DNA of 35,595 nt, taken from positions 1-35,595 of the forward strand of contig JASHPE010000089.1 in the NCBI GenBank assembly GCA_030038235.1, written 5' to 3'. Every line of letters starts with the position of its first letter. The stretch's first letter is position 1. Below the pieces are notes generated by a model that did not search any database, was not told the origin of the DNA, and was given only the letters and a program-made list of their open reading frames with translations. The translations under genes and the position numbers were made by a program. Shown in pieces: positions 431 to 11,962 of this stretch. This DNA is from Terriglobia bacterium (GTDB lineage Bacteria > Acidobacteriota > Terriglobia > UBA7540).

Positions 431-2593
431 CTAGAACTTCACCATAATATCAAAATCGACCAGGAACTCGCTCTTGACAAGGTTCGGGAACCAGACGCCG
501 CCCTGCCCGGCACAGGCTGTCTGTGCCGCAGTGAGGGCGGTCGCCCCGGATGGAGCACCGTTGTTGCATGCGTATTCGGTGGGATAGCCGTTACCGTTAA
601 CCACAACAGCGGGAGTGCCCGCATACGCCGGAGGCGTAATACCCCCGTGACCCGACCAATACGGTACATCGGCGTGGCGATAGTCCGGCTCGATGCGAAA
701 GGTAATGTACTGTTTCGGCATCCAGTCGAAAGTGAATGAGCTGTCCCAGGCCTTGAATGGGTCGCCGGGGTTTTCCGTAAAGTAAGGCGAATTGATGGCT
801 GCGGAGCCTGCGGTCTCACCGTTGATGGGCGGAAGCAGCACAAGATAACGTCCGGGATTGTTGATCGCGCCGCCCCCAAGCGTTATGGCAAACCGGTCCC
901 GATCGAACCAGAAGCGGTTGTAAAGCATGGCGCCAATAAAGCTCTGTTTGGGGCCGCCTGCGTGGTCGCCGGTGCAACTCACGCCGCCGCCGTATTCACA
1001 ACCGAGGTCGCCGGTGAAGGTAAACGCCATCTTGTCGAGGCCACTTACATCAGCTCGATCAAAGTATTTAACTTCAAGGCTGTTGTCCGTGTGGATGCGG
1101 GCGCGGCCGGGCGTGTATAGATCGTCGTGGCCCAGACCATATTCATTCGAAATGACGTTCATCCATGGAAAAGGAGTCCACTTAAGCTGTCCTCCCAGCC
1201 CAGGCCGGTTATTGGACGAACCGTACGACTGCCAGCCATTGATAAACCAGGGCTCAATCTTAAGGTGAGGAGTGGGGAAGATTTGGATGCGGACTCCCTG
1301 AAAGAACCACGGAGTATTCGAGGAAACATAGGAAGGTTGATAGGCCCAGTTATCAAAGTTGTAGTAGCTGAACAGGCCGATATAAGACATAAAGATTCCC
1401 GCGTCCACATTGACTCCATACAGCCAGTTGAAGTGGTACCCTCCGTATGCTTCTGAAAGGTAGCGATCGGCATCGGAAACGTCCCACTCGCCGTGAGTGT
1501 AACTGCCGTCGTTGCGAATGGTCGCCGTGGAATACGCCCCGAACTGGGTCATAAACCGGGCGCGGACATTATCCCAATGAAAGTCGCCGCCGATGCCGAG
1601 TTGTTCCAGCTGGACTTCTCCCGACCGAAAGAGTTCACTCGACCCTCCCATCGAGTGGTCCGTGGGATGTTGGTTATCCCAGGTGGCGGTGACGTCAGAG
1701 CGGATTTCCGGGGTAAAGAATTTCGTGTCCCAATAGATGTCTTTGGTGCGGGGATTACCGTTGAGCCATGTCCAATCGGCGTCCGAAAAGGGCTCGATTT
1801 TCGCCGGCTTCTGGGCGTCCTGCGCCGGCGCCAACCATCCGGTGGCGACCGCCGGGGCTGGGTCAGGCGGTTTGGCAGAAGGAGCGCTGGTGGCGGGCGG
1901 GTTGGCGTCGGGCGCCGAGGCCTCCGGAGAAATGAACGCCAGTTGGTCGGGTTTCGTGGACGGCAAAACTGCGGGCGTCTGCGAAGAGGCCAGTGGAGCC
2001 GCAGTGGCTGTGGCAGCCGGGCTGCTTCCCGCTTGCCGGGCTTCCATCAAGGCCAAACGCTGCTCCAAGCGGTCGATGCGATCGAGCAGTTGCTTTTCCC
2101 GCTCGGTCAGCGGCGCCTCGGCACTTGACGCGGATGCGGTCAACGCGCCTGCCGCGCCCGAAGTGCCTGCCGAGGCGAGGGTAATATCGTCACGAAGACT
2201 CACGCCTGCTTTCACTTGCACGAAGCTGGCCGCCGCCGTTGCAAACCCTTCCTTGCTTGCGGTCACCTGGTAGGGCCCCGGCCTCAGGTCTTGGGCTACA
2301 AACGTCCCATTGCCGCCGCTGAAGAGTGTGAGGTCGCCGTTTTCGTTCACACTGTGCAGTGTTACCTGAACTTTCCCAAGCGGCCCTCCGCTGGGATCTC
2401 GCGTAATCCCGTGAATCTCGCCGAGTGTTGGCCCGCCCGAGGCCGCGACAGCCCGCGACGGCTTCCCGGCCCGGTCCGCTGACCTTGTCGCGTTCCGATC
2501 CAGTGCCGCCGTCTGCGCGCCGCACTTCGGGTGTGAGCTTACACCCAACACCAGAATGACACTTGCAATGCCGCCCAACGATAACGTCTTCAT
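431..2593 (-). CDS. Outer-membrane beta-barrel porin with N-terminal carboxypeptidase-regulatory-like domain
   Basis: Predicted 720-residue outer-membrane protein. The ATG at 2593 is chosen over an in-frame ATG 33 bases upstream because it is followed directly by a signal peptide (MKTLSLGGIASVILVLG). Residues about 57-139 form a carboxypeptidase-regulatory/Cna-B-like beta-sandwich (GEIHGITRDPSGGPLGKVQV, then a DLRPGPYQV turn). A short coiled coil follows (about 162-187), then a Pro/Ala-rich linker. From about residue 268 to the end the protein is a close paralogue of the porin at 2962-4785, sharing blocks such as FTPEIR, GGDFHWDNVRARFMTQFG and KQYITFRIE. This matches the OmpL-like putative beta-barrel porin-2 type by pattern. 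The gene has its own upstream site of four TTTA direct repeats, matching the one before the kdp operon. K+ or general small-solute passage is inferred from context; selectivity cannot be read from the sequence. Confidence 0.8.
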   Translation of the reverse strand: MKTLSLGGIASVILVLGVSSHPKCGAQTAALDRNATRSADRAGKPSRAVAASGGPTLGEIHGITRDPSGGPLGKVQVTLHSVNENGDLTLFSGGNGTFVAQDLRPGPYQVTASKEGFATAAASFVQVKAGVSLRDDITLASAGTSGAAGALTASASSAEAPLTEREKQLLDRIDRLEQRLALMEARQAGSSPAATATAAPLASSQTPAVLPSTKPDQLAFISPEASAPDANPPATSAPSAKPPDPAPAVATGWLAPAQDAQKPAKIEPFSDADWTWLNGNPRTKDIYWDTKFFTPEIRSDVTATWDNQHPTDHSMGGSSELFRSGEVQLEQLGIGGDFHWDNVRARFMTQFGAYSTATIRNDGSYTHGEWDVSDADRYLSEAYGGYHFNWLYGVNVDAGIFMSYIGLFSYYNFDNWAYQPSYVSSNTPWFFQGVRIQIFPTPHLKIEPWFINGWQSYGSSNNRPGLGGQLKWTPFPWMNVISNEYGLGHDDLYTPGRARIHTDNSLEVKYFDRADVSGLDKMAFTFTGDLGCEYGGGVSCTGDHAGGPKQSFIGAMLYNRFWFDRDRFAITLGGGAINNPGRYLVLLPPINGETAGSAAINSPYFTENPGDPFKAWDSSFTFDWMPKQYITFRIEPDYRHADVPYWSGHGGITPPAYAGTPAVVVNGNGYPTEYACNNGAPSGATALTAAQTACAGQGGVWFPNLVKSEFLVDFDIMVKF

Positions 2594-2680
2594 GTCGCTC
2601 ACTTTCTGCCTGGAGAAGCGAAGCATTTTACGGACGTGACGCCGTACCTTCTAGTACTCACCATATTCAATACCAGAAGC

Positions 2681-2720
2681 CATAAACGACGAATAAACAC
2701 TCTGTAAATTATTTATAAAG
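2681..2720 (-). promoter_or_regulatory. Putative KdpE operator upstream of the distal porin
   Basis: Read on the minus strand, TTTA tetranucleotides occur at 2719-2716, 2708-2705, 2697-2694 and 2686-2683: four direct repeats with an exact 11-bp period, about one helical turn. The site ends about 90 bases before the porin ATG. The same four-repeat, 11-bp-period layout occurs before the kdp operon at 9685-9724, and 15 of 17 bases are identical across the last two repeats. OmpR/KdpE-family regulators bind tandem direct repeats, and the E. coli kdp site contains TTTATA and TTTACA elements 11 bp apart. No convincing -10 box was identified. The rest of the 2594-2961 intergenic stretch shows nothing recognisable. 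Confidence 0.65.
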
Positions 2721-2961: not shown

Positions 2962-4785
2962 CTAAAATTTAACTAGAATGTCCATATCGATCAGAAACTC
3001 GTTCTTGCGAAGGTCCGGAAACCAGACGTTGGCCGGTCCACCGCAAGCAGTCTGCGCCGCTGAAAGGGACGTCGCCCCGGACGGAGCGCCGTTGGTGCAG
3101 GCGTATTCGGTGGGATAACCATTACCGTTAGTAACATCGCCGGGAGTGTCTCCATATGCCGGAGGTGTAATGCCCCCGGTGCCCGACCAGTAGGGCACAT
3201 CGGCGTGACGATAGTCCCCCTCAATGCGGAACGTGATGTATTGTTTGGGCATCCAGTCAAAAGTGAGCGAGGAGTCCCAGGCTTTGAATTTGTCGCCGGG
3301 GTTTTCCGTGAAATAGGGGCTATTGATGGCTGCGGATGGAGCAGTCATCCCATTGATGGGAGGAAGCAACACCAGATAGCGCCCGGGATTGTCGATACCG
3401 CCACCGCCGAGCGTCACACCGAACTGATCTTTGTCGAACCACCAGCGGTTATAGAGCATGGCGCCGACGAAACTCTGCTTGGGGCCGCCCTTGTGATCTC
3501 CGGTGCAGCTCACACCGCCGCCGTACTCACAACCAAGGTCGCCGGTAAAGGAGAATGCCATCTTGTCGAGGCCGCGGTTCTCGGGCCTGTCGTAGTACTT
3601 GATTTCGACGCTGTCGTCGGTGTGGATGCGAGCACGGCCCGGCGCATACAGATCATCGTGGCCCAGTCCGTAGTTGTTGGCAATAATGTTTATCCACGGG
3701 TATGGAGTCCATTTGATCTGCCCTCCTAGACCTGGACGGTTATTCGCTGAGCCGTACGACTGCCATCCGTTGATAAACCATGGCTCAATCTTCAGGTGCT
3801 CGGTGGGGAAGATCTGGATTCGCACGCCGTTGAAAAACCATGGCGTGTTCGAAGAAACATACGACGGCTGGTAGGCCCAGTTGTCGAAATTGTAGTAGCT
3901 GAAAAGGCCGATGTAAGACAGGAAGATTCCGGCGTCCACATTCACCCCATCGAGGACGTTAAAGTGGTATCCGCCGTAAGCTTCCGAAAGATAGCGGTAA
4001 GCCGTATCGAGATTCCACTCGCCGTTTGCGGGACTGGCGTCGTTCCGGGGCGTGGTCTCGGAATACATCCCAAACTGGGTCATGAACCGGGCCCGCACAT
4101 TGTCCCAGTGGAAGTCGCCGCCCACTCCAAATTGCTCCAACTGCACCTCGCCCTCCCGGAAGGTCTCGCTCGAACCACCCAGAGAGTGATCGCCTGGATG
4201 GTGATTCTGCCAGTTGTAGTTCAAATCGGCCCTGATTTCCGGAGTGAAGAATGGCGTGTCCCAGAAGATTTGCTTGGTCCGGGGATTGCCATTGAGCCAC
4301 GTCCAATCCCAATCTGAGAAAGGAGCAGGCTTTGCCGGCGCCGTCTGCGCGGTTTCAGCGGGCTGAGCCGGAGCGGCGGCGGTCTGGGTCGACGTCTGCA
4401 CCGGCGGCCCCGGAATCTGCTTCACGTCAGGAAGCGGAGTGGTGGCGGCCGGCGGCAGGGAAAGCGCCGCCGCTCGCAGAGCCGTGGTCGGCGTCAGCGC
4501 AGCGATAGTGACGTTCGCAGCCGGCGCCTCGGCGGCGGCGTTCGCCGGCGCGTTGCCCGACTGTTGTTGCGCCTTTATGCTCTTCAGTTCCGCCTGGAGT
4601 TGTTCGATCTGCTTTTGCATCGCATCGAGCCTTTTCAGAATCTCAGCGGATACTTGCCGATCGCTGGCCGGGGTTTGCTGGCCGGATGCCTGGCTCGTGG
4701 TTTGCGCCCCAGCCGCGCTCGGTGCGAGCGTCAGGATTAGCGTGAATAAGAGTGGTTTGCATCGACACGACACGAACTTAGACAT
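2962..4785 (-). CDS. Outer-membrane beta-barrel porin (kdp-linked)
   Basis: Predicted 607-residue outer-membrane porin, paralogous to the product of 431-2593. The ATG at 4785 has a strong AGGAGG nine bases upstream. A signal peptide (residues about 1-28, hydrophobic core LLFTLILTLAPSAAGA) is followed by a coiled coil (about 48-75, LDAMQKQIEQLQAELKSIKAQ) and a Pro/Ala/Thr-rich linker. From about residue 155 (PFSDWDWTWLNGNP) comes a barrel domain rich in alternating aromatic and glycine strands, ending in FLIDMDILVKF with a C-terminal Phe typical of barrel proteins. The coiled coil may trimerise the porin or reach peptidoglycan. It lies only 73 bases after kdpC on the same strand with no operator of its own, so it is probably the last gene of the kdp transcript. 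A role in outer-membrane K+ entry is inferred. It lacks the extra N-terminal beta-sandwich of its paralogue. Confidence 0.82.
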   Translation of the reverse strand: MSKFVSCRCKPLLFTLILTLAPSAAGAQTTSQASGQQTPASDRQVSAEILKRLDAMQKQIEQLQAELKSIKAQQQSGNAPANAAAEAPAANVTIAALTPTTALRAAALSLPPAATTPLPDVKQIPGPPVQTSTQTAAAPAQPAETAQTAPAKPAPFSDWDWTWLNGNPRTKQIFWDTPFFTPEIRADLNYNWQNHHPGDHSLGGSSETFREGEVQLEQFGVGGDFHWDNVRARFMTQFGMYSETTPRNDASPANGEWNLDTAYRYLSEAYGGYHFNVLDGVNVDAGIFLSYIGLFSYYNFDNWAYQPSYVSSNTPWFFNGVRIQIFPTEHLKIEPWFINGWQSYGSANNRPGLGGQIKWTPYPWINIIANNYGLGHDDLYAPGRARIHTDDSVEIKYYDRPENRGLDKMAFSFTGDLGCEYGGGVSCTGDHKGGPKQSFVGAMLYNRWWFDKDQFGVTLGGGGIDNPGRYLVLLPPINGMTAPSAAINSPYFTENPGDKFKAWDSSLTFDWMPKQYITFRIEGDYRHADVPYWSGTGGITPPAYGDTPGDVTNGNGYPTEYACTNGAPSGATSLSAAQTACGGPANVWFPDLRKNEFLIDMDILVKF

Positions 4786-4858: not shown

Positions 4859-5449
4859 TCAGTGGTTGGGTTCTTTTTGCGGAAACTTCTGATCCAGGTC
4901 CAGGTTTAACAGCAGTACATTCACGCGCGGCTCGCCGAGCAGGCCCAGAGTGCGTCCCGTCGTGTGGTCCGCGATGAGCCGCTGCAGATCTTGCAGACTG
5001 ACGCCCCGCGCTTTGGCGACACGCGGCGCCTGCGCCTCAGCCGAGGCTGGGCTGATGTCGGGATCGAGCCCGCTCGCGGACGCCGTCACCATGTCCGCCG
5101 GGATGGGACCGGTATAATCGGGGTTGTCCTTCCGGAATTGGTCGACCGAAGCCTTGACGCGATCGATCAGCTTCTGATTGGTGGGACCGTACTGTGAGCC
5201 ATTCGATTGCGATCCGTCATAGCCGTTGCCGGCTGCCGACGGCCGGGGCTGGAAGTACTGCGGCTTGGAGAAGCCCTGGCCGATCAGCGACGATCCCACT
5301 GTCTGACCATTCATTTCCAGCAGGCTGCCGTTGGCCTGATGGCGGAACAGAATCTGGCAAAGGCCGGTGACGATACCGGGATAGATCAGGCCGGTCAGGA
5401 TGGTGAACAGCAGCGTGATGCGCAATGCGGGTCCGAACTGTCTCCACAT
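4859..5449 (-). CDS. kdpC: Potassium-transporting ATPase subunit C
   Basis: KdpC (196 aa) is the single-span subunit that stabilises the KdpFABC K+ pump in the inner membrane. One N-terminal transmembrane helix (about residues 10-32, [20 protein letters not shown]) is followed by the periplasmic domain. Family motifs seen are [39 protein letters not shown] and [18 protein letters not shown]. Length and motif order are normal for the family. The start at 5449 lies 12 bases after the kdpB stop, consistent with translation from one message. A porin gene follows 73 bases downstream on the same strand. Confidence 0.97.
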
Positions 5450-5461
5450 GATGGGTCTCCA

Positions 5462-7579
5462 TTAAGCCAGTCGCAGCCAATGCACGATCTGATCGATCAG
5501 CCAGATTCCTGGGAAAGGCGCAACGATGCCGCCGATTCCGTAGATCAGCAGATTGCGCCGCAGCATGGCTTCCGCCGCCTGCGGGCGATATTTCACGCCG
5601 CGCAGCGCCAGCGGAACCAGCGCGATGATGATCAGCGCGTTGAAAATCACCGCCGAGAGCACCGCGCTCTGCGGCGTGTGCAGACGCATGATGTTCAGAT
5701 ATCCCAGGGCCGGGTACGTGGCCATAAACATAGCCGGAATGATGGCGAAGTACTTGGCCACATCGTTGGCGATGGAGAACGTGGTCAGGGCGCCGCGCGT
5801 AATCAGCAACTGCTTGCCGATGGCCACGATCTCAATGAGCTTGGTGGGATTGCTGTCCAGGTCCACCATGTTTCCGGCTTCCTTCGCCGCCATGGTGCCC
5901 GTGTTCATGGCCACGCCTACGTCCGCCTGGGCGAGCGCGGGCGCGTCATTGGTGCCGTCGCCGGTCATGGCAACCAGCCGCCCTTCGGTCTGTTCCCGCT
6001 TGATGTACTGCAGCTTCTGCTCAGGCGTCGCCTGAGCCAGAAAGTCGTCCACTCCGGCTTCCGACGCGATGGCGGCGGCGGTCAGCGGATTGTCGCCGGT
6101 GATCATCACCGAACGGATGCCCATGTTGCGTAATTGACCGAGCCGCTCCTTCATGCCGCCCTTGACCACGTCCTTGAGATGGATGGTGCCCAGCAGCCGG
6201 GGGCCGTCAGTGACAGCGAGGGGCGTTCCGCCGGAACGCGAGATGCGGTCGGACACGTCGGCGAACGTCGGCGGCACGGTTCCGCCGTTTTCGCGGACAA
6301 AGCGCATAATGGCTTCCGTCGCGCCTTTGCGAAGCTGCCGCCCGTCCAGATCCACGCCGCTCATGCGGGTGTATGCGGAGAAAGGAATGAAGTGAGCCTC
6401 CAGATCGTGCACCTCGCGGCCGCGGAGGTTGAACTGAGCCTTGGCCAGCACCACGATGGACCGTCCTTCGGGCGTTTCGTCGGCGAGACTGGAGAGTTGG
6501 GCGGCGTCCGCCAGTTCCGATGGCTCGACACCCTCCACGGGGATGAACTCCACAGCCTGGCGATTGCCGAGCGTGATGGTGCCGGTCTTGTCGAGCAGCA
6601 GTGTATTCACGTCGCCCGAGGCTTCCACGGCCTTGCCGCTCATGGCCAGCACATTGTGTTGCATCACGCGGTCCATGCCCGCGATGCCGATGGCGGAAAG
6701 CAGTCCGCCGATGGTGGTCGGGATGAGGCAAACGAGCAGGGATACCAGCACGGCTACTGACGGCACTTCGCCGGCGCCCGCCGATCTCACCGCGTACAGC
6801 GCGAACGGGTGCAGCGTCACCACCGCCAGCAAAAAGATCAGCGTCAGGCCGGCGATCAGAATGTTGAGCGCGATCTCGTTGGGCGTCTTCTGACGCTCGG
6901 CGCCTTCTACGAGAGCAATCATGCGATCGAGGAAGGTCTCGCCCGGGTTCGACGTGATGCGGATCTTGATCCAGTCCGAAAGGACCTTGGTACCACCCGT
7001 GACGGCGCTGCGATCGCCGCCCGACTCGCGGATGACCGGAGCGCTCTCGCCAGTGATGACCGACTCATCGACGGTGGCGATGCCCTCGGTCACTTCGCCG
7101 TCGCCGGGGATGTTGTCGCCGGCCTCGCAAAGCACAAGGTCGCCCGCCCGCAGCCGCGACGCCGGCAGCTCTTCGATTTTGCCGCCGCCATTGAGCAGCC
7201 TCTTGGCCAGCGTCTCGGTCTTGGCTTTGCGCAGCGTGTCAGCCTGCGCCTTGCCCCGGGCTTCCGCCATGGCCTCGGCGAAATTGGCAAAGAGCACCGT
7301 GAACCACAGCCAGAGCGTGATCTGCAGCGTAAAACCGATGGGATGGGCGCCCGTGATCGCGTCGCGCGTCACAAAGATGGTAGTTAGCGAGGCTCCGACC
7401 TCGACCACAAACATCACCGGATTGCCCATCAGGGTGACGGGATTCAGCTTCACGAACGATTCCCGAATCGCGCGCCGAAGGATGGGCGGGTCGAACAGCG
7501 GACGCGCCCGCACCAATTTCTTCGGCAGCAGATCGGTCTCGTCTTTGACAGCAGGCGGCGGCGCCACAACGGTTGCCAT
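5462..7579 (-). CDS. kdpB: Potassium-transporting P-type ATPase, catalytic subunit B
   Basis: KdpB (705 aa) hydrolyses ATP to drive high-affinity K+ uptake through KdpA. P-type ATPase signatures are complete. TGES lies at residues 177-180 in the actuator domain, the phosphorylated Asp is in DKTGT (D330), the nucleotide domain carries the KGA block, and [12 protein letters not shown] and [18 protein letters not shown] form the hinge. Hydrophobic pairs flank the cytoplasmic domains (about 55-105, 240-300, 605-690). The length is slightly longer than the roughly 680 aa of E. coli KdpB, mostly through N-terminal residues rich in Pro and charged side chains. The start lies four bases after the kdpA stop, giving tight coupling. 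The Ser in TGES, which is the inhibitory phosphorylation site described in E. coli KdpB, is conserved. Confidence 0.98.
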
Positions 7580-7583
7580 AAGT

Positions 7584-9401
7584 TCAACTCCAGATCGGCA
7601 ATGAGAACAATGAAGAGAACAGCTTGCCTTCGCGCATTAGGAAATGCTCTACGATGGGTCCGAGCGAAAGGGCCGGGAAATAGGTGAGGGCCCCGACGAT
7701 GACCACGGTTCCAATCAACAGCCCCACGAACAGGAATCCGTGCGTGGGCAAGGTGCCGCTGGTCACCGGAATCTTCTTTTTCGCCGCCAGGCTTCCCGCC
7801 ACTGCCAGCATCGGAATGATGAACAGAAAACGTCCGATCAGCGTGGCGAGACCCAGGCTGAGGTTGTACCAGGGTGTGTTACCGTTCAGCCCCGCGAAGG
7901 CGCTGCCGTTGTTCCCATTGGTGCTGGTGTACGCGTAGAGAATCTCAGTGAATCCGTGCGGTCCATCGTTGGTGATATTGGCGGCTGCAGGGCCCGGCGG
8001 ATTCCAATAGCCGTTCTTGGCGAAATTCGCCACCGAGCTGACTCCGGTGAAAACGAGGACGTTGGCGGCCATCAAAATCAGCGCCAGCATCGCCATCTTC
8101 ACCTCCTTCTGCTCGATTTTCTTGCCGATATACTCGGGCGTGCGTCCCACCATCAGCCCGGCGATGAAGACGGCCAGGACGGCGAACAGCAGCATCCCCT
8201 TGATGCCGGCGCCGACTCCGCCGAAGACTACCTCGCCGAGTTGGATGTTGAACAGCGGCACCAAGCCGCCGATAGGCGTGTAGCTGTCGTGCCAACTGTT
8301 GATGGCGCCGCAGCTCGCGTCCGTGGTCACCGTCGCAAAGAGCGTCGAGGCCGGGATGCCGAACCGCACTTCCTTGCCTTCCATATTGCCGCCCGGCTGC
8401 ATCGAGCTCGCTTTGGTCTCGAGCCCGAGCTTGGTCAGTTGCGGATTGCCTGCCTGCTCCGCCGGATAGCAGACCAAAACCCCGGCCAGAAACAAGACGC
8501 TCATAGCTCCGAACAGGGCCCAGCCCTGGCGCCGATCGGCCACCATCCTGCCGAACTGATAGGTGAGGCCGGCCGGAATCACAAAGATCATGAGCATCTC
8601 AACGAAGTTGGTCAGCGGAGTCGGGTTCTCAAAAGGATGGGACGAATTGGCGTTGAAGAATCCGCCGCCGTTGGTCCCCACCATCTTGATCGCTTCCTGC
8701 GACGCTACCGGACCCTGAGGAATGATCTGCGCTGCGCCTTCTACCGTCTTCACCGTGGTGTTGGCTTTGAAATTCTGGATCACGCCCTGCGAGCACAGGA
8801 AGAGCGCGCCGAGAAGCGACAGCGGCAGGAAAATGTAGAGCACCGACCGGGTAAGGTCGACCCAGAAATTGCCGATGCTGTTCACCTGCTTGCGCGCAAA
8901 GCCGCGAATCAGCGCCACGGACGCGGCCACACCCGCGGCTGCGGAAACGAAATTCTGCACCGTCAGCGCGGCCATCTGCACGAAATAGCTCAGGGTGGAT
9001 TCGCCGCTATAGTTCTGCCAATTGGTGTTGGTCACAAAGCTGGCGGCGGTGTTGAAGGCGAGGTCAGGCGTCATCGCGGTGGCGCCGGAAGGGGCATGAC
9101 TGCTGCCGAAATGATTGGGATTGATCGGCAGGAAGCCTTGTAACCGCTGGATGATATAGGCGAACAGCAGGCTCACGAGGCTGAATGCGATCAGCGAGGC
9201 TGCGTACTGCGTCCAGCGCTGCTCGGTCTCCTCGCGCACGCCGCACAGGCGATAGGTCAGTTTTTCCAGTGGGCGAATTAGTGGGTGCAGGAACGTGCGC
9301 TCGCCTTGGAAGAGCTTCGTCATGAAGACGCCCACCGGCTTGGTGAGGGCCAGAATCACAAGAAAGTAGACCGCGATGTTGAGAATCCCGATGGCAGTCA
9401 T
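7584..9401 (-). CDS. kdpA: Potassium-transporting ATPase subunit A
   Basis: KdpA (605 aa) is the K+-channel-like subunit of the KdpFABC pump, with four repeated membrane-pore-membrane units in the inner membrane. Selectivity-filter regions are visible: [13 protein letters not shown] (about 121-133), [20 protein letters not shown] (242-261), and later segments including [14 protein letters not shown]. The protein ends with the usual [20 protein letters not shown] block, followed by about 15 extra residues. Length is a little above the E. coli protein. The ATG at 9401 follows the kdpF stop by nine bases and the kdpB start follows its own stop by four, so the order F-A-B-C is intact and co-translated. 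Confidence 0.98.
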
Positions 9402-9410
9402 GACATCTCC

Positions 9411-9494
9411 TCAGAAACGCTCAGGGCGCAGCAGGGCGTACACCAGATAGCCGAACAGAAAAACCGCAGCAATGCCAGCAATTACGTAATCCAT
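9411..9494 (-). CDS. kdpF: KdpF small membrane subunit
   Basis: This ORF of 27 codons reads MDYVIAGIAAVFLFGY then LVYALLRPERF. KdpF is a single transmembrane peptide that stabilises the KdpFABC complex, and the C-terminal YxLLRPERF block is its hallmark. A good ribosome-binding site (AGGAGG) sits about ten bases before the ATG at 9494 and overlaps the TAG stop of the preceding 27-codon ORF. kdpA starts nine bases after its stop. Length, motif and position leave little doubt. Confidence 0.95.
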   Translation of the reverse strand: MDYVIAGIAAVFLFGYLVYALLRPERF

Positions 9495-9508: not shown

Positions 9509-9592
9509 CTACAAGCGATCGCAGGCCCTGGCGAATTCCCAGCAGCCCACGAAAAAGATCACTCCCACAAAGACGTAGAACAGATCAAGCAT
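9509..9592 (-). CDS. 27-residue membrane peptide, first ORF of the kdp transporter operon
   Basis: This short ORF begins MLDLFYVFVGVIFFVG and ends CWEFARACDRL. It is a single predicted transmembrane helix with a short charged tail (R-x-C-D-R-L). GGAGGAGAG lies four bases before its ATG, one of the best ribosome-binding sites in the window. Its TAG stop overlaps the kdpF ribosome-binding site and kdpF starts 14 bases later, so the two are probably co-translated. It is distinct from KdpF, which follows and has its own hallmark motif. I recall similar unnamed short ORFs ahead of kdpF or kdpA in other genomes, but cannot verify this here. It could be an extra subunit of, or regulator for, the Kdp pump. 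Confidence 0.7.
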   Translation of the reverse strand: MLDLFYVFVGVIFFVGCWEFARACDRL

Positions 9593-9684
9593 CTCTCCTC
9601 CCGCCCCGCATCACAATCGACTTTCAGAATCAACCGTAGCCCGCTGCAGCTCATCACGCTACAGTTCAAATCCTAGAACTGCGG

Positions 9685-9724
9685 TCATAAACGAGGCATA
9701 AACGTTCCCTAAATACTCTCTAAA
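9685..9724 (-). promoter_or_regulatory. Putative KdpE operator upstream of the kdp transporter operon
   Basis: On the minus strand TTTA occurs at 9724-9721, 9713-9710, 9702-9699 and 9691-9688: four direct repeats spaced exactly 11 bp apart. The site lies between the kdpE stop and the small membrane ORF, about 95 bases before its ATG. A twin array precedes the distal porin at nearly the same distance from the start codon. Tandem TTTAxx direct repeats at one helical turn fit a DNA-bound OmpR/KdpE-family dimer pair. No clear -10 element could be assigned downstream. Confidence 0.7.
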
Positions 9725-9758: not shown

Positions 9759-10466
9759 TTAACCGGCCTCGGGCAGGTGAAACCGGTAGCCGGCCCACGG
9801 TTCGGTCAGCAGATAGCGCGGCTTGGCGGGGTTGGGCTCGATTTTCTTGCGCAGCCGGTTGATGAATACGCGCAGATACTCATGCTCGTCTCCGTAATCC
9901 GGTCCCCAGACGGCCTGTAGAAGCTCCCGGTGGCTCAAGACTTTGTTGGGATGGCCAACCAGGAAGGAAAGCAGATCCATTTCCTTCGAGGTGAGGCGCA
10001 CCGGCGTGCCCCGGACCGTGACCTGGCGGGCCTCGAAGTCGATCTCGACATTGTCGAACGCCACCCGGCGCTGACCCGGCTCCGAGGAGAGCGGCGTGCG
10101 GCGCAGCGCGGCCCGAATCCGCGCCAGCAGCTCCGGAGTGCTGTAAGGCTTGGTGACGTAATCATCCGCTCCCGCGTCCAGTGCCTCCACCTTGTCGCGC
10201 TCCGCGCCCCGGATGGTCAGCATGATCACAGCCAGGTCCGGCCCCGGACGCGCCGCACGGATGGCGCGGCAGACTTCCAGGCCGTCCATGCCGGGCATGT
10301 TCATGTCGAGCAGCACCAGGTCGTAGTGCCCGGAGCGGAGCTTCTCAAGCGCCTGATCGCCGCTGCGCGCCTCATCCATCTCGTAGCCGTTGGCCACCAG
10401 TGTAGTCCTCATCACGCGGCGGATCTGAGGCTGATCGTCCACCACGAGGATGCGTCCGGCGCTCAC
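9759..10466 (-). CDS. kdpE: OmpR-family response regulator KdpE
   Basis: KdpE (235 aa) is the DNA-binding partner of the KdpD kinase and activates kdp transcription when K+ is limiting. The receiver domain (about 1-120) has the acidic pair D10/D11, the phosphorylated Asp at about 54 in LLDMNMPGMDG, and Lys106 in TKPY. The C-terminal winged helix (about 135-232) has the OmpR-type run ending in VFINRLRKKIE and a recognition helix in EHEYLRVFINRLRKK. Start is GTG at 10466, overlapping the kdpD stop by four bases (GTGA), so the pair is translationally coupled. It lies upstream of, and in the same direction as, the transporter genes, a different order from E. coli (kdpFABCDE). Confidence 0.95.
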   Translation of the reverse strand: MSAGRILVVDDQPQIRRVMRTTLVANGYEMDEARSGDQALEKLRSGHYDLVLLDMNMPGMDGLEVCRAIRAARPGPDLAVIMLTIRGAERDKVEALDAGADDYVTKPYSTPELLARIRAALRRTPLSSEPGQRRVAFDNVEIDFEARQVTVRGTPVRLTSKEMDLLSFLVGHPNKVLSHRELLQAVWGPDYGDEHEYLRVFINRLRKKIEPNPAKPRYLLTEPWAGYRFHLPEAG

Positions 10467-11962
10467 TTTGCGCTCCCTTCTTGAGCGTCAAACGGCAGCG
10501 AGAGACAGAAGTCCGACCCCTCGGACGACGTCTTGTCGAGCCACACTTCGCCGCCGTGCGCACGCGCGATCTGGCGCGCAATCGCCAGGCCCATGCCGGT
10601 TCCGTGCGTGCCCCCGGCATTCGAGCCGCGATAGAACTTGTCGAAGATCCGCGACTGCTCCGGCGCCGGCACGCCCGGGCCGTGGTCGGAGACGCAAATC
10701 ACCGCGCGTCCGTCGCGCCGTGCCGCTTGAATCGCGAGGGGCGAGCCGCGAGGCGAGTATCGCAAGGCATTGTCCAGAAGCTGGCGAACGGCCAGCACCG
10801 TCATGTCAGCGTCCACATTCACCTGGGGCAGGCCCAGCTCCACGTCCACTCTCACCTGGCGCCCTTCAACGGCGGATTCGACGGTATCGAGCGCGGCGGC
10901 CAGGATGGGAGCGAGAGGCTGGCGCGCTCGATCTAACTGGACGGCGCCGGCTTCGATGCGGGCCACGTTTACAGCCTCAGTGACCAGGCGGTTCAGGTGG
11001 TCGATATCCTCGTTGACGACCGCGATCAAGTCCTGCCGCGCCTGCGGTTCCGCGACCACGCCGGACAACAGCGCCGTGGTCGCGGCCTTCATCGAGGTCA
11101 GCGGCGTCTTGAACTCATGAGCGAGAGCGTCGAGCAGCGTCGATTTCAAATCCTGACTCTCCCGGGCTGCCTCCGCGCGATTGGCGGCTTCCTGCGCGCG
11201 CGCCTTCTCCAAGCCGATCGCGGCCAGGTTCGCCAGCGCCTGCAGCACGGTGTCGGAAGGCAGTTGGCCGCGCACCGCCAGCGCGCCGATCGGCTCGCCG
11301 CCCAGGCGGATCGACGTGACCACGGTGCCGGTGGCAGCGTCGTGAAAGAGCGTTCCCTTCAGGGCGGCCTCGCGCAATTGCTCGTCAATTTCCGGCACAT
11401 CCTCCGGCCCGGTGTGATAAATCGTCCCCGTGCTGCGCTCGAGGAAAGCAGCGGCGGAGAGGTTGAACACCTGTGCGACTTGCCGCGCGATCGCATGCGC
11501 GACGCCTTCCTCGGTGTTTGTCAGCAGCAGGGAGCGGCTGAGCGCGTAGAGCCTCTCCATGTCCTGCTGGCGTTCCAGGGCCTCGCGGGTGCGTTGTTTG
11601 GCGCGCGCACCGAGCTGACTGGCCAGGATCGACGTGGCCAGGAAGGCAAATAGCGCCGCCCAGTTCCGCGGGTCGGCTACCGTGAACGTGAGGAGCGGAG
11701 GCAGAAAGAAAAAATTGAAGCACAGGACGGCAGCAACCGACGCGGCCAGCGACTCCATCAGTCCCCAGGCGCTCGCCACGGCGAGGATCGCGACGAGATA
11801 GATGAAGCCGGCGGTGGTGGCATTCACCTTGAGCACGCGATAGGCGGCAAACGTGATCGCGGCGACGATGGCGAGCGAAGCCAGCACTTGCAGCCCGACG
11901 CGGATAAAGCTCAGGCCGGCAGGTTTGCGCAAACGTGCAGCGGTATCGGAGAAGCTTGTCAT
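10463..11962 (-). CDS. kdpD: KdpD-like sensor histidine kinase lacking the N-terminal KdpD/Usp region
   Basis: This is a membrane sensor kinase of 499 aa. Residues about 20-115 form the four-helix DUF4118 region, about 140-255 a GAF-like domain, and about 275-340 the HisKA domain with the phospho-acceptor His282 in ALAHEFKTPLTSM. The rest is the ATPase domain with N box (QLLDNALRYSPRG), G1 box (VSDHGPGVP), F box (IFDKFYRG) and G2 box (GTGMGLAIARQIARAHGG). E. coli KdpD is about 894 aa because it carries an N-terminal KdpD domain and a Usp domain implicated in K+ and cyclic-di-AMP sensing. Both are absent here and no ORF for them lies next door. It is paired with kdpE by a four-base overlap. 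The start ATG at 11962 precedes a soluble N-tail and the first membrane helix. Confidence 0.9.
   Translation of the reverse strand: MTSFSDTAARLRKPAGLSFIRVGLQVLASLAIVAAITFAAYRVLKVNATTAGFIYLVAILAVASAWGLMESLAASVAAVLCFNFFFLPPLLTFTVADPRNWAALFAFLATSILASQLGARAKQRTREALERQQDMERLYALSRSLLLTNTEEGVAHAIARQVAQVFNLSAAAFLERSTGTIYHTGPEDVPEIDEQLREAALKGTLFHDAATGTVVTSIRLGGEPIGALAVRGQLPSDTVLQALANLAAIGLEKARAQEAANRAEAARESQDLKSTLLDALAHEFKTPLTSMKAATTALLSGVVAEPQARQDLIAVVNEDIDHLNRLVTEAVNVARIEAGAVQLDRARQPLAPILAAALDTVESAVEGRQVRVDVELGLPQVNVDADMTVLAVRQLLDNALRYSPRGSPLAIQAARRDGRAVICVSDHGPGVPAPEQSRIFDKFYRGSNAGGTHGTGMGLAIARQIARAHGGEVWLDKTSSEGSDFCLSLPFDAQEGSAK

Follow-up and report, generated by a model that had tools for sequence, protein, structure and literature searches.

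In Escherichia coli, KdpE has been described with kdpFABC as its sole target, and ChIP-exo places kdpFABC as the main target within a very small direct regulon (kdpABC, adeP, uxaA, and uxaC) that includes no porin (PMC7657598). The operator before kdpFABC consists of two half-sites, TTTATA and TTTACA, at about -72 to -50 and with 5 bp between them, so that TTTA recurs at 11-bp intervals; KdpE no longer binds when the TTTA bases are changed (PMC3264566). Binding needs the residues R193, R200, and T215, of which R193 is conserved in KdpE orthologs only.

Potassium is usually assumed to pass the outer membrane freely through general porins. Porins under the control of a limitation regulator are known from the Pho regulon, with PhoE and OprP as further members besides KpnO. 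In the case of KpnO, which is under PhoB (PMC3405095), a regulator of the OmpR/PhoB family acts through 11-bp repeats and couples inner-membrane uptake to an outer-membrane porin. In Rhizobium etli, which belongs to another phylum, the gene of the outer-membrane protein RopAe lies near kdpA-kdpE; in this study of copper, the passages on kdp make no mention of control by KdpE (PMC6011978). In the papers searched, with subscription journals mostly not covered, we found neither a KdpE-controlled porin nor a link between the BBP2 porin family and K+ uptake.

Here, we describe a kdp locus of a Terriglobia bacterium (Acidobacteriota) on a contig of 35,595 nucleotides, which as a whole is referred to as the window. 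The locus resembles the E. coli system in its TTTA-type direct repeat (11 bp from start to start) before kdpFABC, in a KdpE with the same three DNA-contact residues, and in kdpFABC as the main target of what appears to be a very small regulon. In contrast to E. coli, the repeat comprises four half-sites, and a BBP2 porin either lies in the operon or has an array of its own. The Pho regulon offers the same combination of limitation regulator, 11-bp repeats, pump, and porin, whereas the ion, the pump, the regulator, and the porin family all differ (here K+, KdpFABC, KdpE, and BBP2).

Layout of the kdp-porin locus and its two arrays

All genes of the locus are on the minus strand, in the order kdpD-kdpE, 27-codon ORF, kdpF, kdpA, kdpB, kdpC, porin 2, and porin 1, with the following features:

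10463..11962 (-), kdpD-type histidine kinase of 499 aa, without the N-terminal PF02702/Usp sensor (Pfam)
9759..10466 (-), kdpE, response regulator that would bind the arrays (closest PDB entry 4KNY, KdpE of E. coli, 7.7e-49)
9688..9724 (-), putative KdpE operator of four half-sites before kdpFABC (exact pattern)
9670..9675 (-), -10-like hexamer TAGGAT of the kdp promoter (T13/T18 positions; strict pattern)
9509..9592 (-), 27-codon single-helix ORF, first in the kdp transcript (ATG at 9592)
9411..9494 (-), kdpF (Pfam PF09604, 3.7e-09)
7584..9401 (-), kdpA (Pfam PF03814, 3.9e-240)
5462..7579 (-), kdpB (Pfam E1-E2_ATPase and Hydrolase)
4859..5449 (-), kdpC (Pfam PF02669, 1.8e-73)
2962..4785 (-), porin 2, a BBP2 barrel 73 bp behind kdpC, with no array of its own (Pfam)
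2683..2719 (-), putative KdpE operator of four half-sites, one TTTA per 11 bp, before porin 1 (exact pattern)
2665..2670 (-), -10-like hexamer TTGAAT of porin 1, 12 bp behind the array (T13/T18 positions; strict pattern)
431..2593 (-), porin 1, a BBP2 barrel with an N-terminal CarboxypepD_reg domain (PF07642, 3.6e-37; PF13620, 1.6e-13)

Both porin 1 and kdpFABC are thus preceded by an exact TTTA-N7-TTTA-N7-TTTA-N7-TTTA array. According to 100 dinucleotide shuffles, no exact four-fold array is expected in the window, and a genome-wide pattern search found these two as the only ones in the whole assembly, a draft of 481 contigs and 6.67 Mb in which neither the reversed pattern nor a one-mismatch version of the array has a site. 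A chance origin of the arrays is ruled out by the shuffles, this uniqueness, the mismatch search, and the spacing controls given below. Matches with two mismatches mostly belong to a dispersed TTTTAGCTTCG-type repeat, present on contigs C213, C272, C300, C362, C452, and C469 of this genome (G000).

The sequence-only reading of this stretch had claimed that the two arrays have the same spacing, lie about 90 bases from a start codon, and agree in 15 of 17 bases over their last two repeats, and that a second porin directly follows kdpC. All of this was borne out: the period is 11 bp in both arrays; the distance is 89 bp to the ATG of porin 1 (2593) and 95 bp to that of the 27-codon ORF, with kdpF itself starting at 9494; the alignment of the last two repeats gives 15 of 17 identical bases; and porin 2 follows kdpC on the same strand. 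We found no minus-strand terminator-like site in the gap between kdpC and porin 2, and no array upstream of the porin 2 ortholog in G116, a genome of the same genus. As judged from this layout, porin 2 is expected to be reached by read-through from the kdp promoter.

The 27-aa peptide ahead of kdpF matches no Pfam family. Short ORFs with a C[DE]RL-like ending precede kdpF in up to 48 of 76 kdp loci, a count that comes from a simple pattern and includes a few cases of KdpF itself.

Promoter geometry and KdpE as the candidate ligand

A feature missed by the sequence-only reading is the -10-like hexamer, which begins 13 bp past the last TTTA, at an identical distance in both arrays. Among 74 aligned kdp and porin array sites, T is found at +13 in 82% and at +18 in 97%; these two columns lie outside the matrix described below and played no part in finding the sites. 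As the array ends 12 bp before the -10 hexamer, it occupies the position of the -35 element, and the absence of a consensus promoter at both arrays in a simple sigma-70 scan is what would be expected if an activator replaces the -35. PhoB, as an activator that replaces the -35, represents the same type of arrangement. With a transcription start 7 bp past the -10, the array would extend from about -61 to -25 and overlap the -35, whereas KdpE of E. coli binds further upstream. With its four half-sites and its location near the -10, the putative operator is a variant architecture relative to the E. coli KdpE site.

The window KdpE can be aligned with its E. coli counterpart from end to end, and its R199, R206, and T221 correspond to R193, R200, and T215, so that all three contact residues are kept. 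The genome encodes six full-length OmpR-type regulators, of which only the kdp-adjacent KdpE has a KdpE-type recognition helix; in the other five, D or E takes the place of R193. With the NCBIfam KdpE equivalog, the window KdpE reaches 183.6 bits (cut-off 325); it is below the cut-off for all equivalogs listed, and PhoB scores slightly above KdpE, so we regard it as a distant ortholog by its helix and gene neighbourhood and not by the NCBIfam model. Given the half-site and spacing of the arrays, the contact residues kept in KdpE, and the D or E in place of the KdpE-type arginine in the other regulators, KdpE is the obvious candidate for the ligand of the arrays, to which it would bind.

The adjacent kinase lacks the N-terminal PF02702 and Usp domains of KdpD. 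Two stand-alone PF02702 KdpD-sensor proteins are encoded on contig C324 (L023, 988-3277 (-)), and the two parts possibly form a split KdpD like that described for Desulfovibrio vulgaris (PMC3333781).

Arrays before porins across Terriglobia, and arrays outside the class

In 299 Terriglobia genomes, the exact four-box pattern occurs at 20 sites in 13 genomes, compared with 2 sites for the reversed pattern. Exact sites in five genomes (G116, G078, G025, G008, and G198) are followed by a kdp operon, by a BBP2 porin, or by an operon of porin and kdp genes, and five exact sites are near neither kdp nor porin (one each in G146, G158, and G160, and two in G071). G116 has both arrays. In G078, the pump and the porin are on different contigs, each with an exact array, and in the genomes of genus g38 they are unlinked and both arrayed according to the matrix. 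As to the spacing, 1.78 Mb of fetched loci, part of which were selected for holding exact sites, contain 62 sites with at least 14 of 16 positions matched (up to two deviations) at a spacing of 11, and 0-5 sites each at spacings of 9, 10, 12, or 13 or with the reversed motif.

Porin upstream regions were then scored against a null drawn from the same loci, with a matrix whose training set comprised 14 kdp promoters alone and left out the window's genus. With this kdp-trained matrix, 60 of 85 porin upstream regions exceeded the 99th percentile of that null and 36 the 99.9th, with 25 below the 99th; the porins of G030, G117, G147, G271, and G279 have no visible array upstream, and arrays in family f6 are diverged. 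All 24 porins just upstream of kdpA exceeded the 95th percentile and 21 exceeded the 99th, which was also the case for 34 of 49 porins unlinked to kdp. The array was seen, weakly, before two of five porins in genomes without kdpA, which counts against a joint regulon. In a held-out second collection of 48 porin loci, 41 were above the 99th percentile, and the matches carry the -10 T bases at +13 in 90% and at +18 in 95%. The sequence-only reading had named the absence of the array upstream of orthologous porins as evidence that would speak against it; over the roughly 130 loci of both sets, the result favours its claim, with the same operator before pump and porin units in the orthologs.

Porin and pump genes are also associated by gene content and order. 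kdpA is present in 76 of 81 genomes with the porin and in 124 of the 217 genomes without it (Fisher p ~1e-10, with no correction for relatedness). In families f5, f6, f9, and f10, kdpFABC directly follows the porin at 24 loci, and mostly one clear array precedes the two, so that the porin is apparently the first gene of the kdp operon. In four genomes without the close porin (G211, G127, G229, and G115), a divergent BBP2 porin can occupy its place (Pfam 2.3e-25 to 1.4e-66), with the array 17-40 bp ahead of the ORF as called. Operator identity between kdp and porin was 56.5% within a family and 52.9% between families; as this is only slightly above background, we dropped lineage-matched co-evolution as an argument. 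One kdp segment is the same in two bins of different families (G126:C72, L026; G297:C63, L027), one of which probably holds a foreign contig, and one copy was dropped from the statistics.

Outside the class, a strict array with a -10 is found behind kdpE and before kdpFABC in G377 and G468, before a KdpD-sensor-like protein and a permease-like ORF in G402, and before a permease-like ORF in G333. The permease-like ORF of G333 and G402 (647-652 aa; L303, 7678-10037 (-), and L302, from 3075 (+)), ahead of which the strict array lies behind kdpE, is possibly a second K+ importer under KdpE. In the non-Terriglobia genome G306, the array is followed by an unrelated barrel-like ORF (L299, 2751-3747 (+)) and then by kdpFABC, a layout that suggests independent recruitment of an outer-membrane protein. 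The permease and barrel readings are by sequence appearance, as these ORFs have no Pfam match.

The porins, a candidate pump-porin regulon, and its alternatives

Porin 1 and porin 2 are the only two BBP2 members in the genome (PF07642; 128.8 and 130.4 bits against a gathering threshold of 26.2), and the close-group and divergent porins of the class all match the same family. The barrel modelled alone (56 sequences) has 16 strands (pLDDT 78, pTM 0.77), whereas the full-length model of porin 2 was poor (pLDDT 57). Compared with solved porins by Foldseek, the barrel matched the MOMP, DcaP, OprO/OprP, and OmpF types at E of about 1e-6 with modest TM-scores. The two porins are tandem paralogs, and their barrels are 81% identical. 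Between the window and G116, barrel identity is 93% for the porin 1 orthologs and 79% for the porin 2 orthologs, indicating stronger constraint on porin 1, which has an array to itself; the intergenic region ahead of porin 1 has largely diverged between the two genomes, except for the array and the -10. The CarboxypepD_reg N-terminal domain of porin 1 is shared by the divergent porin of G115 and is missing from porin 2. We also considered the net barrel charge as a cation-selective signature and rejected it, since it is not consistent across the class: it is -19 and -18 in the window and ranges from -19 to +6 over the class, so that selectivity for K+ or other ions cannot be read from charge.

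A joint pump-porin regulon controlled by KdpE is the best reading of these data and, judged from sequence, a highly probable one. The co-regulation of pump and porin claimed by the sequence-only reading is supported by the arrays before porin orthologs, the conserved -10 spacing, and the array-porin-kdpFABC order. The arrays might instead serve a different regulator of the OmpR/PhoB type or a KdpE-like paralog, so that KdpE would not be the (sole) regulator of the porin; regulators of this family commonly bind repeats of about 11 bp, such as the Pho box, and in some relatives the porin is near a second KdpE-like regulator that could act on it. We consider this unlikely, as the arrays share the TTTA half-site of E. 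coli KdpE and not the CTGTCAT of the Pho box, only one of the six regulators has the matching recognition helix, and several families and classes have this array between kdpE and kdpFABC. The tandem paralogy of the two porins raises the question of whether the porin 1 array is a functionless remnant from a recent duplication, either of the kdp promoter or of a kdp segment containing a porin. This is very improbable: the likeness of the two promoter regions is confined to the array and the -10, which G116 keeps while most of the intergenic region has diverged; single unlinked porins in other genera are also arrayed; and porin 1 is the better conserved copy. As nothing beyond the array and the -10 is common to both promoters and the array is kept across genera, a recent duplication of the kdp promoter was rejected.

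More weight has to be given to the alternative that co-regulation is real and the porin serves general diffusion or osmotic stress, carrying other solutes in response to KdpE as a signal of osmotic or ionic stress. The lack of a common cation-selective signature in barrel charge over the class and the unrelated barrel-like ORF at the same place in one non-Terriglobia genome are in line with this, and E. coli kdpFABC has been reported to respond to salt stress too (PMC7657598). On the other hand, the porin recurs immediately ahead of the K+ pump genes and its presence goes along with that of kdpA, which suggests a K+-related task, and the porins of the window are strongly acidic. We therefore regard a general porin as possible but rather doubtful, and the porin as a plausible path for K+.

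Under joint control by KdpE, the four TTTA repeats would serve as KdpE half-sites, head to tail and one helical turn apart, in an array that would stand in for the -35 element. When K+ is short, KdpD would phosphorylate KdpE, and two KdpE dimers would fill the array and recruit RNA polymerase at the kdpFABC promoter and at the separate promoter of porin 1, while kdpFABC transcription would run through kdpC into porin 2. With KdpE acting at both promoters, the pump and the outer-membrane porins would be made together, and soil Acidobacteria would probably open both membranes to K+ at the same time under shortage. The KdpE regulon would thereby be extended to the outer membrane, in a design that resembles the porin/pump pair of PhoB. 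As a tentative extension, which we regard as somewhat less likely than not, high-affinity K+ uptake in Acidobacteriota could be a two-membrane system, in which a K+-permeable BBP2 porin is the dedicated partner of KdpFABC and is switched by KdpE through a four-half-site operator replacing the -35, because outer-membrane permeability to K+ limits the pump at low K+. That a dominant soil class conserves an operator shared by the K+ pump and a porin suggests that high-affinity K+ uptake can be limited at the outer membrane, and the link through the array points to a function for BBP2, a large porin family.

Finally, stand-alone winged-helix ORFs (Trans_reg_C without a receiver) were observed near the array, before porin or kdp genes, in G078 and in G126/G297 (L029, 9646-10032 (+), and L026, 9395-9808 (-), the second below the Pfam cut-off); they are perhaps competitors for the operator.
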